Assembly (NCBI RefSeq): GCF_018678075.1
Contig: NZ_JAHHIR010000054.1
Location: 1 to 47,363 of the forward strand
From: Epibacterium ulvae
GTDB taxonomy: Bacteria; Pseudomonadota; Alphaproteobacteria; Rhodobacterales; Rhodobacteraceae
Length of the DNA stretch: 47,363 bases
Direction: 5' to 3'
Position 1 is the first letter of the stretch. Each line of letters begins with the position of its first letter. The translations under genes and the position numbers were made by a program. The notes beneath the pieces are model-generated. The model had not been told where the DNA came from. It made no database searches and worked only from the letters and a program-made list of their open reading frames with translations. Of the stretch, positions 7,926 to 14,946 are shown piece by piece.

Positions 7926-9641
7926 TTAGCCTTTGATCAGGCCCATGCTTTCGAGCTTCAGGATCACCTGATGGGCGCAATTGTCCACATCTGTGCCTTC
8001 AGTCTCAACACGCAGTTCGGGGCTTTCTGGAACGTCATAGGGGTCCGAGATGCCGGTGAACTCTTTGATCTTGCCTTCACGCGCCAGCTTGTAGAGGCCC
8101 TTGCGGTCGCGGCGTTCGCATTCCTCGATCGAGGTTGCAACGTGCACTTCGACAAACGCACCATACTGTTCGATGCCCTGACGGACCTGACGGCGGGTGG
8201 TTGCATAAGGTGCAATCGGTGCACAGATCGCGATACCACCGTTTTTGGTGATCTCGGATGCGACATAGCCGATACGCTGGATGTTGAGGTCGCGGTGCTC
8301 TTTGGAGAAGCCCAGCTCGCTCGACAGGTTCTTACGCACGATGTCACCATCAAGCAGGGTCACCGGACGGCCACCCATCTCCATCAGCTTGACCATCAAA
8401 GCGTTTGCAATGGTGGATTTGCCTGAACCAGAGAAGCCAGTGAAGAAGACGGTGAAACCTTGGTCCGCACGTGGCGGTTTGGTCCGACGCAGCTCTTTCA
8501 CAACTTCCGGGAAGGAGAACCATTCCGGGATTTCCAGGCCTTCCGCCAGACGGCGGCGCAGCTCGGTGCCCGAGATGTTCAGGATGGTGATGTCATCCTT
8601 GTCTTCGATCTCGTCGATGGCCTCATATTGGGCACGTTCCGCAACCCAGACCATATGTTTGAACGGCACCATTTCGATGCCCATTTCTTCTTGGTGTTCT
8701 TTGAAGAGATCCTGGGCGTCGTAGGGGCCGTAGAAATCTTCGCCCTGGCTGTTTTTGCCGGGGCCCGCGTGGTCGCGGCCAACGATGAAATGGGTCAGCC
8801 CGTGGTTTTTACGGATCAGACCGTGCCAAACGGCTTCACGAGGGCCAGCCATACGCATCGCCAGCGGCAGCAGCGACATGGAGGTGGTGGCTGCTGGATA
8901 TTTGTCCAGAACCGCCTCGTAGCAGCGGACGCGGGTGAAGTGGTCCACGTCGCCAGGCTTGGTCATGCCAACAACCGGGTGGATCAGCAGGTTTGCCTCA
9001 GACTCGCGCGCGGCGCGGAACGTCAGCTCCTGGTGGGCACGGTGCAGCGGGTTGCGTGTTTGGAACGCAACGATCTTGCGCCAGCCCAGCTTGCGGAAGT
9101 AAGCGCGCAGCTCGTTTGGCGTATCACGACGGGCACGGAAATCGTAGTGCACCGGCTGTTGGATACCGGTGACAGGGCCACCGAGGTAGATTTTACCAGT
9201 CTGATTGTGCAGGTAGTCCACTGCCGGGTGGGCAATGTCATCTGCGCCAAAGACTTTTTCAGCTTCGACCGATTTGTTCGGCTCCCAGCTGTCTGTGACG
9301 GTCATGGTCGCAAGGATCACACCTTCCTGGTCACGCAGGGCAATATCTTCGCCAATTTCCAGCGATTGCGCGAAATCTTCTGAGACGTCCAGAGTAATCG
9401 GCATGGGCCACAAGGAGCCGTCCGCCAGACGCATGTTCTCAACAACACCATTATAGTCAGCTTCGCCAAGGAAGCCTTTGAGCGGGTTGAACCCGCCATT
9501 CATCAAAAGTTCAAGGTCACAAATCTGGCGCGGGCTAAGGTCATGGCTTTTGAGGCTTGCGGCCTCAACCTTTAGCTTTTGCGCGGACTCATACGATACA
9601 TATAGCTCCGGAATGGGAGCCAAGTTACTCAATGTGGACAT
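7926..9641 (-). CDS. sat: Bifunctional sulfate adenylyltransferase / adenylylsulfate kinase (Sat-CysC fusion)
   Basis: A 571-residue cytoplasmic enzyme that activates sulfate to APS and then phosphorylates it to PAPS for assimilation or sulfation. Residues 1-390 are a Sat-type ATP sulfurylase, with QTRNPLHRAH at 194-203 and GRDHAGPG at 288-295. Residues 391-571 are an APS kinase, with Walker A GFSGSGKST at 402-410, DGD at 431-433 and APIAPY at 474-479. All key motifs are intact, so both activities are expected. I chose the ATG at 9641; the frame extends upstream but unrelated to the family. No other sulfur genes are in the window. The same fusion is common in Rhodobacterales. Confidence 0.95.
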   Translation of the reverse strand: MSTLSNLAPIPELYVSYESAQKLKVEAASLKSHDLSPRQICDLELLMNGGFNPLKGFLGEADYNGVVENMRLADGSLWPMPITLDVSEDFAQSLEIGEDIALRDQEGVILATMTVTDSWEPNKSVEAEKVFGADDIAHPAVDYLHNQTGKIYLGGPVTGIQQPVHYDFRARRDTPNELRAYFRKLGWRKIVAFQTRNPLHRAHQELTFRAARESEANLLIHPVVGMTKPGDVDHFTRVRCYEAVLDKYPAATTSMSLLPLAMRMAGPREAVWHGLIRKNHGLTHFIVGRDHAGPGKNSQGEDFYGPYDAQDLFKEHQEEMGIEMVPFKHMVWVAERAQYEAIDEIEDKDDITILNISGTELRRRLAEGLEIPEWFSFPEVVKELRRTKPPRADQGFTVFFTGFSGSGKSTIANALMVKLMEMGGRPVTLLDGDIVRKNLSSELGFSKEHRDLNIQRIGYVASEITKNGGIAICAPIAPYATTRRQVRQGIEQYGAFVEVHVATSIEECERRDRKGLYKLAREGKIKEFTGISDPYDVPESPELRVETEGTDVDNCAHQVILKLESMGLIKG

Positions 9642-9907
9642 GCGAATTCTCTCATCGTTCTCGCAGAATTGGTCAAGGTAGGAGCCTTTTCCAATTGGGG
9701 GCATACAGGTAACAGGACGTTGATGTCCACCACACCAATGTAAAAAGGACAAGATGTGCTTCTGCTTGCTCATCTAGACCCGTGTTCGGCCTTTTTGATG
9801 AGCTTTAGGACGAGATTATGGGTTTTTTGCGAAATTCGGGTGGAATGTGTTTGTAAATCGCATATTACCGCCTGTTTTTCGGTCGGTCGCGTAACGATTG
9901 CGTGAAA

Positions 9908-11584
9908 TTACCCCATTTGCGGTAGTTCGCCGCGTAAATATGAGGCGCTTTCTAACGGCCAGGCCCGCACCGGCAGCGACACTCCCCGCAGCTCGAACGT
10001 GCGCAGTTCTTTGCCGGCCAGTGTAACATTCGCCGCGCGCAGCAGGCTTTCGGACACTAACAGCTCGACACGCAGCTCTTTGCACATGGCTTCCAGTCGG
10101 CTTGCGGCGTTGACGGTCCCGCCGATGATTGTACGTGGTGCAGCGGCTCCGCTGCCGATTTCCCCAACAACCACCTGACCAAGATGAAGACCCATGCCAA
10201 TTCTGACCGCTGTGTCACCGGCCGCTTCCAGGCTCTCATTGAAGGTTTTTAGGGCTTCAGAAATTCCACAGGCCGCCGTTAGGGCCGCCCGCGCAGACGA
10301 GCGGGGATCTGGGGTTTCAAACACCGCCAACAGACCGTCCCCCATGTATTTGTCCACATTCCCGCCGGCTTTGGTGATTTGCGGCACAATGGCATCAAAA
10401 AAACGGTTCAACAGGAAGACAACGTCATAAGGCAGCAGGCCAGCAGTGCGTTGGGTAAAGCCACGCATGTCCAGAAACAGAATTGCGATCTGACGTTCTT
10501 CGCCCTGGCTTGCATGTGCACGATGCCGCCCGCCTTTGGGGCGAAAAACCCGGTAGGCTGTGACAGGTTGGTCGGGCCGGATCTGGCAGGCCAGGCGCAT
10601 ATTGGGTGATGCCTTGACCGCCTGCAGTGACCGGGCCTCTGCCAGCGATGGGGGCGGCAAGGTCTCAGCACCTTCTTCGATGACCACACGGCAGGTGGTG
10701 CAGCGCCCTTTGCCACCACAAAGCGCGGTGTGGGGCACGCCGTGGGTTTGCGACATCTCTAACAGGGTCATACCGCGATCCCCGTCCACGATGGGGCCGC
10801 CGACATAATTGATCTTTACCGCGCGGCGGCGACGCATCAGGCGACGTAGAACATAGAGTGCTGCAAGCGCGCCCAACAGGATCCAGTAGGACTGCACGCT
10901 GCCGTCCATCAACTGCACCAGAAAACCACGCGCCTCTCCATCGGGCCAATTGAAATCGGCGCGCATTTCTGCGGCAAACCCGTCCTCATAGGCAAGATCG
11001 GCCAGACGGCGTCCTTCGACCAAAAAACCAGTCAGCGCGAAGAACGGCACAAAAACAGCGACCCCGATCGCATAGGGAATGATCGCCCGCCACCAGTTCG
11101 CGAGGCGCAGCCAGTGATGCAGACCAATGCAGCCGTGCACCCAGACAACCAGCAACAGCGCAGATTGATACCAAGCGGACTGGCTGCCCCAGATCAGCAA
11201 GATCATATAGCCGTATTCGTCATCCACGCCAAAGATCTCATGCGCGAAGCGGGTGAAGACAATATGGCCCAGCAATTGCAGTGGAATAACAAGCCCAAGG
11301 ATAACCTGAAGCCACTGATGGGTCGGCATGCGTAACGTGCGGCGTTGCACCAGCCCATAAAAGGCCAGGCCCGCGTGCCCCAGAAGCGCCAGACCCAGGG
11401 CAATGGACCCAGGCAGGCTGCGCGTCACAACAGTGCGCGCATCCTGCATTGCATCCATCCATTCAAAGGATATCAGCCCCAAGCCCAGATTTACGAAATG
11501 CAGGAAGGAATAGAATAAAAGGATCAACCCGGTGATGATCCGCCACTTGGTAACCTGGTCACCGTGCCACAGCTGTTTTGCCAA
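9908..11584 (-). CDS. Membrane-bound class III adenylate cyclase with [2Fe-2S] ferredoxin domain
   Basis: A 558-residue three-part protein. Residues 1-250 hold about six membrane helices carrying histidines (H29, H70, H107, H150, H156, H157), with WVHGCIGLHHWLRL resembling the heme-ligand helix of succinate dehydrogenase anchors. Residues 255-345 are a ferredoxin domain with C289-x5-C295-x2-C298 and C333, the adrenodoxin-type spacing. Residues 365-545 are a class III cyclase with metal aspartates D372 and D416, purine-selecting K412 and T485, and transition-state N492 and R496, so it should be active and make cAMP. The related CyaC of Sinorhizobium meliloti is known as a quinone-responsive diheme cyclase. 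I infer that quinone or electron-transport state controls cAMP here. Heme binding is a prediction. Confidence 0.88.
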   Translation of the reverse strand: MAKQLWHGDQVTKWRIITGLILLFYSFLHFVNLGLGLISFEWMDAMQDARTVVTRSLPGSIALGLALLGHAGLAFYGLVQRRTLRMPTHQWLQVILGLVIPLQLLGHIVFTRFAHEIFGVDDEYGYMILLIWGSQSAWYQSALLLVVWVHGCIGLHHWLRLANWWRAIIPYAIGVAVFVPFFALTGFLVEGRRLADLAYEDGFAAEMRADFNWPDGEARGFLVQLMDGSVQSYWILLGALAALYVLRRLMRRRRAVKINYVGGPIVDGDRGMTLLEMSQTHGVPHTALCGGKGRCTTCRVVIEEGAETLPPPSLAEARSLQAVKASPNMRLACQIRPDQPVTAYRVFRPKGGRHRAHASQGEERQIAILFLDMRGFTQRTAGLLPYDVVFLLNRFFDAIVPQITKAGGNVDKYMGDGLLAVFETPDPRSSARAALTAACGISEALKTFNESLEAAGDTAVRIGMGLHLGQVVVGEIGSGAAAPRTIIGGTVNAASRLEAMCKELRVELLVSESLLRAANVTLAGKELRTFELRGVSLPVRAWPLESASYLRGELPQMG

Positions 11585-12330: not shown

Positions 12331-13275
12331 TCAGTCTTCCTGCTCAGCCAGGAAACGTTCGGCGTCCAGCGCGGCCATGCAACCCATACCGGCCGAGGTC
12401 ACGGCCTGGCGGTATTTGTGATCCGTCAGGTCGCCAGCCGCAAAAATGCCGGGCACCGAGGTCTCGGTTGTGCCGGGTTTGACCGAGACGTAACCGCCGT
12501 TGTGCAGCTCCAACACGTCTTTGACCAGCTCGGTCGCCGGGGCGTGACCGATGGCAACAAAGACACCTTTGCACGGCACGTCGTTGATTTCGCCGGTCTT
12601 GACGTTCTTGACCTTTACGCCTTCGACGCCCAGTGGCGTGTCGGTGCCGTAGACCTCATCCAGTTCGTGGAACCACAGGGTTTCGATCTTTTCGTTTTTC
12701 ATCAGGCGGTCTTGCAGGATTTTTTCGGCGCGCAGCTCGTCGCGGCGGTGGATCAGCGTAACCTTGGAGGCGAAGTTGGTCAGGAACAGCGCTTCTTCGA
12801 CAGCGGTGTTGCCGCCGCCGATCACGACAATTTCTTGGCCGCGATAGAAGAAACCATCACAGGTCGCACAGGCAGAGACGCCGAAGCCTTTGAATTTCTC
12901 TTCGGTCTCAAGACCCAGCCATTTGGCGCGCGCGCCAGTCGCCAGGATGACTGCTTCCGCGGTGTAGGTTGTGCCGCTGTCGCCGGTGGCCACAAAGGGG
13001 CGCACGGTTGTGTCGAGGTTGGTGATCAGGTCACCCACAATGTCACAGCCCATCGCAGCCGCATGTTCCTGCATTTTGACCATCAGGTCGGGGCCCTGGA
13101 CCTCGGTAAAGCCAGGGTAGTTTTCCACTTCGGTTGTTGTGGTCAACTGGCCGCCTGGCTCCATGCCCTGAACCAGTACCGGTTCCAGCATCGCACGGGC
13201 GGCATATACCCCCGCGGTATAGCCCGCAGGACCGGAGCCGATGATCAAAACCTTGGTGTGGCGCGTCTCAGACAT
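12331..13275 (-). CDS. trxB: Thioredoxin-disulfide reductase
   Basis: A 314-residue FAD enzyme that uses NADPH to reduce thioredoxin in the cytoplasm. The FAD loop GSGPAG is at 13-18, the redox-active pair C136-A-T-C139 is followed by DG, and the NADPH loop GGGNTAVEE lies at about 153-161. C-terminal [10 protein letters not shown] binds FAD. The length is normal. It is divergent from an Lrp-type regulator, an arrangement repeatedly seen in alphaproteobacteria, so that regulator may control it. Confidence 0.96.
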
Positions 13276-14151: not shown

Positions 14152-14946
14152 TCAGACCATCGACGGCGGCATGTTGCTCTTGGCATCCGGCATTTCCATA
14201 CGGGGATGACACAAGGGGCCAAAATCCGCAGCCGTCTCAATATGGGTGAACAGGTTCAGATAGAGCGTTCTAATCGCATGGCTGACCAGTTTCAGCGCGT
14301 CTGGTCCGGGGTGATAAGTCTCAAACGGAAGACCGCCGACCCGAATGACGCAATGCTGAGGCAGGCAAAGATGGTACATTTCGACAGGCGTCGGAGGCGC
14401 CGTTTCAACGATGTTCATCCCATCCAGGAATTCGCCCACCGGGGTTAGCAGCCCCTCGGTGGTTTCGTCTCCGCGCAGGTGAGCAGGGGTGCGCATGAGA
14501 CGGGCGGCCGGACCTGCGACAACGCAGGCGGCGGGTTTTGCAAGCCCGAGGCTGTCGGGCATAAAGCTGATCAATTGCTGACGTTCGCCGCGCGCATTGG
14601 GGCGCGTCGGCAGAATTGTCGTACACCCTTTCCAAATCAGCGGCTGCGGTTCTCCGTCGATGTTCATGACCTCATCCCCAGGCAGGAGGTCTTCGACAGC
14701 GATCGGCCCATGGGTCGTATCCAGCAAAGATCCGCGACAAAAGGCGGTGAACGCCTGTTCGAACAGCGGCATCGCGGGCGCCGTATGGCGGGTCTCGGCG
14801 ATGTTGCCGTTGGGCAGAAGGCTCATCACGTCATAACGCCGCAGCTGCGGTTTCGTCGCGCCACGCATTGATGCCGGGTCCTGCAGCAGGGCCTGGGATT
14901 CAACTAAGTTTGCCGCTGCGCGTTGCAGCGAGTAAGGAATGGTCAT
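14152..14946 (-). CDS. Hint-domain (hedgehog/intein-like) protein
   Basis: A 264-residue protein with a Hint module from about residue 65. FCRGSLLDTTHG carries the nucleophile-type C70 that begins Hint folds, AVEDLLPGDEV is the usual following block, and YHLCLPQHCVIRVGGLPFET is the late Hint block. Hint domains in inteins and hedgehog proteins cleave and splice themselves. In Rhodobacterales this architecture is common, and its role is unknown. There is no clear signal peptide or C-extein, so I cannot say what would be cleaved. The ATG is at 14946. Confidence 0.8.
   Translation of the reverse strand: MTIPYSLQRAAANLVESQALLQDPASMRGATKPQLRRYDVMSLLPNGNIAETRHTAPAMPLFEQAFTAFCRGSLLDTTHGPIAVEDLLPGDEVMNIDGEPQPLIWKGCTTILPTRPNARGERQQLISFMPDSLGLAKPAACVVAGPAARLMRTPAHLRGDETTEGLLTPVGEFLDGMNIVETAPPTPVEMYHLCLPQHCVIRVGGLPFETYHPGPDALKLVSHAIRTLYLNLFTHIETAADFGPLCHPRMEMPDAKSNMPPSMV

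Follow-up and report, generated by a model that had tools for sequence, protein, structure and literature searches.

What does a membrane protein sense when it joins an anchor with several well-placed histidines, a ferredoxin and a cyclase in one chain, and does its sensing part serve this one output only? The question is raised by a gene in a 47,363-nucleotide stretch of Epibacterium ulvae contig NZ_JAHHIR010000054.1 (the window), which the initial annotation described as a redox-sensing adenylate cyclase. We observed a cyclase domain, an adrenodoxin-type [2Fe-2S] domain and a membrane anchor within a single frame by Pfam (Fer2 and Guanylate_cyc) and modelled helices, and all sixteen residues named in the annotation (six histidines, four cysteines and six cyclase residues) were at their assigned positions of the 558-residue frame. 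Judged by its sequence, the protein is a CyaC-family adenylate cyclase, a new member of an already described family, and our analysis suggests that it very probably responds to quinone redox state. The anchor-ferredoxin-cyclase design is already published. The new lead is that the same anchor and ferredoxin also occur as a stand-alone protein, with an MscS-family channel gene as partner.

A GGAGG motif lies five bases 5' of the TTG start of this gene (cyaC), and further upstream the in-frame stretch hits a stop after 17 codons; a wrong start call was rejected on account of the motif. Pfam placed Fer2 at residues 267–337 (E 2.3e-8) and Guanylate_cyc at residues 363–517 (E 1.1e-13), and gave no match for the first 250 residues. 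The [2Fe-2S] domain has sequence matches in the PDB to Fdx, adrenodoxin and putidaredoxin. Adrenodoxin-type ferredoxins carry the cysteine pattern C-x5-C-x2-C-x(about 34–37)-C within the Fer2 domain, and C289-C295-C298-C333 fits this spacing. The residue set of a class III, IIIb-type cyclase is complete: D372 and D416, which we take to be the two metal aspartates, K412 and T485, presumably for adenine, and N492 and R496, presumably for the transition state. The genome (4.09 Mb, 107 contigs) holds one full-length copy of this cyclase, together with four further cyclase-domain loci, one weak ferredoxin-region match (E 3.5e-4) and seven cyclic-nucleotide-binding domains.

A protein search returned 1896 homologues at E<=1e-20 among 8000 candidates scored. 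Both Pfam domains were present in all 120 of those listed, which excludes chance co-occurrence of the domains in one frame, and the closest named homologues among the matches listed came from Ruegeria and other Rhodobacteraceae. The anchor profile matched 45 of 398 sampled genomes of the phylum, always at E 2.3e-50 or better; 44 of these matches lay in open frames of at least 557 residues and one in a frame of 380. In a phylum draw of the same size, 30 loci out of 45 matches were examined and 29 had a cyclase match, the exception being the 380 frame; here the cyclase was tested for the locus and not for the frame. In two family members, L039 (G079) and L038 (G287), the anchor-ferredoxin part and the cyclase do not share a frame or the gene is truncated, which may reflect sequencing or assembly errors.

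Conservation was assessed in a 50-row alignment of the class, which comprised the window protein, the 29 places ranking directly after it and a selection of 20 from further down rather than all matches (46 full-length rows, two stand-alone forms and two cut or split). H29, H70, H107 and H150 were identical in 50/50 rows. The annotation had listed six well-placed histidines; these four stand, and H156 (His in 32/50 rows) and H157 (2/50) were rejected as heme ligands for poor conservation. Exactly four histidines were also invariant among 27 anchors taken from both the cyclase-fused and the stand-alone branches, so that the candidate heme-ligand set, as far as sequences tell, is four and not six. 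In the cyclase domain, the K412 column had Lys in 35 rows, Gln in seven, another residue in four and a gap in four, and the T485 column had Thr in 42, Ser in four, Gln in two and a gap in two. Lys at position 412 is the adenine-specifying residue, and Gln in those seven rows might alter substrate use. The window protein also has a glycine, G489, where 44 of the 46 full-length rows have Asp; Gly is likewise found in the near homologues P0002, P0005 and P0006.

The four cysteines C289, C295, C298 and C333 were identical in 50/50 rows of this alignment and in 66/66 rows of the module tree described below. This bears on the possibility that the ferredoxin domain is a mere spacer or dimerisation element, the hemes exerting redox control by way of the final helix. 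Other class III cyclases do signal through helical linkers without a ferredoxin, but a spacer has no need of invariant cysteines, and we regard this explanation as very improbable.

The annotation had further presented the iron-sulfur domain as an extra over Sinorhizobium CyaC. We compared the window protein with P0335 from Ensifer sp. P24N7 (Sinorhizobium by its UniRef name, with 122 member sequences), which carries the source name CyaC and served as a proxy for S. meliloti CyaC (SMc01818). The two proteins are 37% identical over residues 13–558 (E 2e-107); every His, Cys and catalytic residue has its counterpart in the alignment, and P0335 has Fer2 at 266–331 with the same Cys pattern. The published scheme of S. 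meliloti CyaC shows two hemes and a [2Fe-2S] cluster, and the protein is reported to bind heme B, to exchange electrons with ubiquinone and to follow the quinone redox state in its activity (PMC10463352). An earlier survey likewise sets apart, as a cluster of their own, 30 cyclases in which a ferredoxin links the cyclase to a six-transmembrane anchor with four histidines (eLife 2016, PMC4821796). Consistent with these data, the [2Fe-2S] domain is no new addition to CyaC, and that part of the annotation falls. Its broader proposal of a CyaC-like, probably diheme and quinone-responsive cyclase, with an electron-transfer domain placed between anchor and cyclase, is supported.

The anchor is probably a cytochrome b of the fumarate reductase type. 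The structure model places H29, H70, H107 and H150 one per helix in the first four predicted helices of a six-helix anchor. A model of a stand-alone paralogue, with a predicted TM score (pTM) of 0.82, gave fold matches to the diheme quinol:fumarate reductase chains 1qlb_C and 5xmj_C; for the full-length window model, the rows of the fold searches shown were all cyclase matches and none was informative on the anchor. Sdh_cyt was matched by 3/27 anchors (best 6.4e-5), that of the window not among them. The profile match of the anchor to 5xmj_C was weak (E 7.2), and in it H29, H70 and H107 align with His of that chain.

The stand-alone form was seen in 2/289 genomes of the class, where the anchor and ferredoxin match lies in a short open frame of 380–386 residues. 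Neither locus (L036, from the window's own family, and L037) has a cyclase within 12 kb, and in both an MscS-family channel gene follows next downstream with a 4-bp overlap. A protein search with one stand-alone form, in which 8000 candidates were scored, returned 553 proteins at E<=1e-15; those listed, 120 in number, are of 359–398 residues, have Fer2 as their sole precomputed Pfam domain and in many cases bear the source name adenylate cyclase. A scan of named genomes with the stand-alone alignment gave 38 loci. At 34 of them the module stands without a cyclase and with its downstream side visible, and the next same-strand gene is MscS in 34/34 (L109, L114 and L120 among them are truncated at the 5' end). 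Of the remaining four loci, L113 is a contig end, L122 is a cyclase fusion, and L121 and L123 match in the ferredoxin only. With L036 added, and with L037, which is the same stretch as L086, counted once, an MscS-family channel gene comes next in 35/35 distinct loci (L036, L086–L112 and L114–L120). Taking the channel start nearest to the overlap, some channel frames being open further upstream, an in-frame start with the 4-bp overlap was present in 33/36 measured rows (32/35 distinct), and the nearest starts in the exceptions were at -1 (L114), +7 (L107) and +68 (L097). Pfam assigned all nine channel partners scanned to MscS and listed no further domain for them, hence no cyclic nucleotide domain. 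The genomes with such loci include Rhizobium, Allorhizobium, Alsobacter, Labrys, Sulfitobacter, Rhodoferax and Betaproteobacteria.

We built a module tree of 66 rows, made up of the window protein, 28 of another 45 full-length cyclase loci, five cyclases taken from databases and 32 modules linked to MscS; eight loci that were partial, duplicate or of another kind were left out. A single branch (SH-aLRT 99) separates the 34 cyclase rows from the 32 MscS rows, and all eight cofactor residues are conserved in 34/34 and 32/32 rows, respectively. Searching 15 of the genomes that carry the named loci with the window protein, we observed that, of 14 with an MscS-type module, five also hold the cyclase type. 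In two Labrys genomes (L205 and L206) the two types of module are about 8.5–8.7 kb apart. Pairwise distances of modules and channels were correlated (r 0.92, 32 pairs), and 0/1000 permutations gave a value as high. The conservation of the module in this sister branch, together with an exchangeable output, favours a sensor role over an accessory one.

How would the window cyclase work? Its architecture, homology, eight invariant cofactor residues and catalytic residues are in place. We consider it very likely that the gene encodes a CyaC-family cyclase in which two b hemes exchange electrons with ubiquinone, the [2Fe-2S] cluster acts as a relay and the redox state sets cyclase activity. Cofactor occupancy, electron path and sign of the response in this protein would then be as follows. 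The six-helix anchor would hold one heme between H29 and H107 in the periplasmic half and another between H70 and H150 in the cytoplasmic half, and these hemes would exchange electrons with ubiquinone, as published for the S. meliloti protein. The [2Fe-2S] domain may sit beneath the cytoplasmic heme, at the place of the iron-sulfur subunit of fumarate reductase or complex II, and its cluster may take the next electron from that heme or give it one. The oxidation state of hemes and cluster could determine how the short linker (roughly residues 346–360) is arranged and thereby the activity of the homodimeric cyclase, with oxidised quinone presumably giving more cyclic AMP (cAMP), by analogy with S. 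meliloti CyaC.

The window anchor alone matches no Pfam family, and the cofactors are predicted from sequence; both would suit a plain membrane-anchored cyclase free of cofactors. Such a protein is barely credible in view of the invariant His and Cys sets and of the hemes and quinone response reported for the studied member of the family. In another alternative, the [2Fe-2S] domain would take no electrons from the heme: the hemes would sense quinone, and the cluster would be a second, separate input for the cytosolic redox or iron state, fed by electrons from a soluble reductase or acting through cluster loss. Adrenodoxin-type ferredoxins are normally reduced by soluble reductases. Against this alternative, anchor and ferredoxin stay joined across the cyclase and channel branches alike with all eight ligands invariant, and the well-predicted paralogue model suggests a fixed anchor-ferredoxin arrangement. 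We think separate inputs unlikely and prefer the relay from quinone through hemes and cluster to the cyclase.

For the wider family, we tentatively propose, with slightly more doubt than conviction, that the diheme and [2Fe-2S] module is a portable sensor of quinone redox state that serves two or more outputs, among them a fused cyclase and, in a protein of ~360–400 residues with an overlapping MscS gene, a redox-gated mechanosensitive channel, which the redox state of the respiratory chain would either gate or adjust in the tension needed to open it. The coupling of the stand-alone module to the channel is what we infer from the loci, and several points count against it. Shared descent of the species would also produce the correlation of module and channel distances. 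MscS homologues from the large family of the paired channels are common without the redox gene: they occur in 57/289 class genomes at E<=1e-40, and of 19 loci examined only one has the redox gene within the 1.5-kb flank and 18 are without it. On the MscS tree the paired channels need three label changes, with three long branches; the pairing may have several origins, or this tree may be noisy. The named-locus scan used patterns of stand-alone sequences and could miss more distant modules with other partners, and the clean split of the module tree is in part a product of the way in which the two sets were assembled. One MscS gene without a redox gene in its flank (L155) is placed beside the paired channels on a long branch.

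Literature searches, which mostly lacked subscription journals, found no paper on the diheme/ferredoxin-MscS pair. If the module does control MscS, the respiratory state would be linked to the release of ions or solutes by a sensor built from components of the respiratory chain, MscS paralogues with no known trigger would be read differently, and a second readout would be at hand for testing how the diheme/[2Fe-2S] module signals.

Table 1. Position and basis of assignment of cyaC, its domains and selected neighbouring genes
Feature	Position	Strand	Basis
CyaC-type redox-sensing adenylate cyclase gene	9908..11584	-	one open frame, 558 aa, TTG start
Six-helix membrane anchor, residues 1-250; candidate heme ligands H29, H70, H107, H150	10835..11584	-	invariant His; modelled helices; paralogue's fold match
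Adrenodoxin-type [2Fe-2S] domain, residues 251-350; C289, C295, C298, C333	10535..10834	-	Pfam Fer2; conserved Cys; PDB sequence matches
Class III (IIIb-like) cyclase domain, residues 356-558; D372, D416, K412, T485, N492, R496	9911..10519	-	
Fused ATP sulfurylase / APS kinase (sat-cysC), downstream neighbour	7926..9773	-	Pfam; adjoins cyaC also in G022
Thioredoxin reductase-like (trxB), upstream neighbour	12331..13275	-	Pfam; near cyaC also in G022
Hint-domain protein	14152-14946		PF13403, E 7.9e-28

By Pfam, the eight neighbours of cyaC are a short-chain dehydrogenase/reductase (SDR), a zinc alcohol dehydrogenase, the ATP sulfurylase/APS kinase, the thioredoxin reductase, an Lrp/AsnC regulator, the Hint-domain protein, a laccase-domain protein and a small protein with no match (Table 1). 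A relative of the same family (G022) has sat-cysC, cyaC, trxB, lrp and three more genes in the same order, and its locus gave no match to the small protein or the Hint protein. Five other loci compared had only cyaC and weak SDR matches in common with the window. In S. meliloti a TetR-type gene, cycR, is the partner of cyaC, and in Rhizobium sp. Leaf453 a TetR gene adjoins the cyaC homologue. This arrangement is not known to define the family, and no cycR was found among the eight window neighbours; the downstream cAMP route may thus differ in the window's lineage. The window protein adds a CyaC-type redox cyclase from a lineage with its nearest named homologues in Ruegeria and other Rhodobacteraceae, in which this neighbour was not seen.

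Among known systems, S. meliloti CyaC (SMc01818) has the combination predicted for the window protein, with a six-helix diheme anchor, a [2Fe-2S] cluster and a class III cyclase in a single chain; it differs at ~63% of residues, by the P0335 comparison, and in its cycR partner, the window gene lying instead between sat-cysC and trxB. The cluster 1 ferredoxin-associated class IIIb anchors (PMC4821796; R. palustris Q132R4) likewise have the ferredoxin between a four-His anchor and the cyclase, and we saw no difference in kind in a comparison by description rather than by direct alignment. With the diheme cytochrome b of fumarate reductase and succinate dehydrogenase, the anchor shares a His in each of the first four helices and, judging by the matches of the stand-alone paralogue, perhaps the fold; in contrast to it, the CyaC anchor bears a ferredoxin and an output domain on its own chain and has no flavoprotein subunit. 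The stand-alone branch would resemble the bacterial cyclic nucleotide-gated (bCNG) and similar sensor-bearing channels of the MscS superfamily, in which an MscS channel is likewise placed under a signalling module. In bCNG the ligand is a cyclic nucleotide, whereas in the stand-alone branch the partner is a diheme/[2Fe-2S] protein encoded by a separate, usually overlapping gene.
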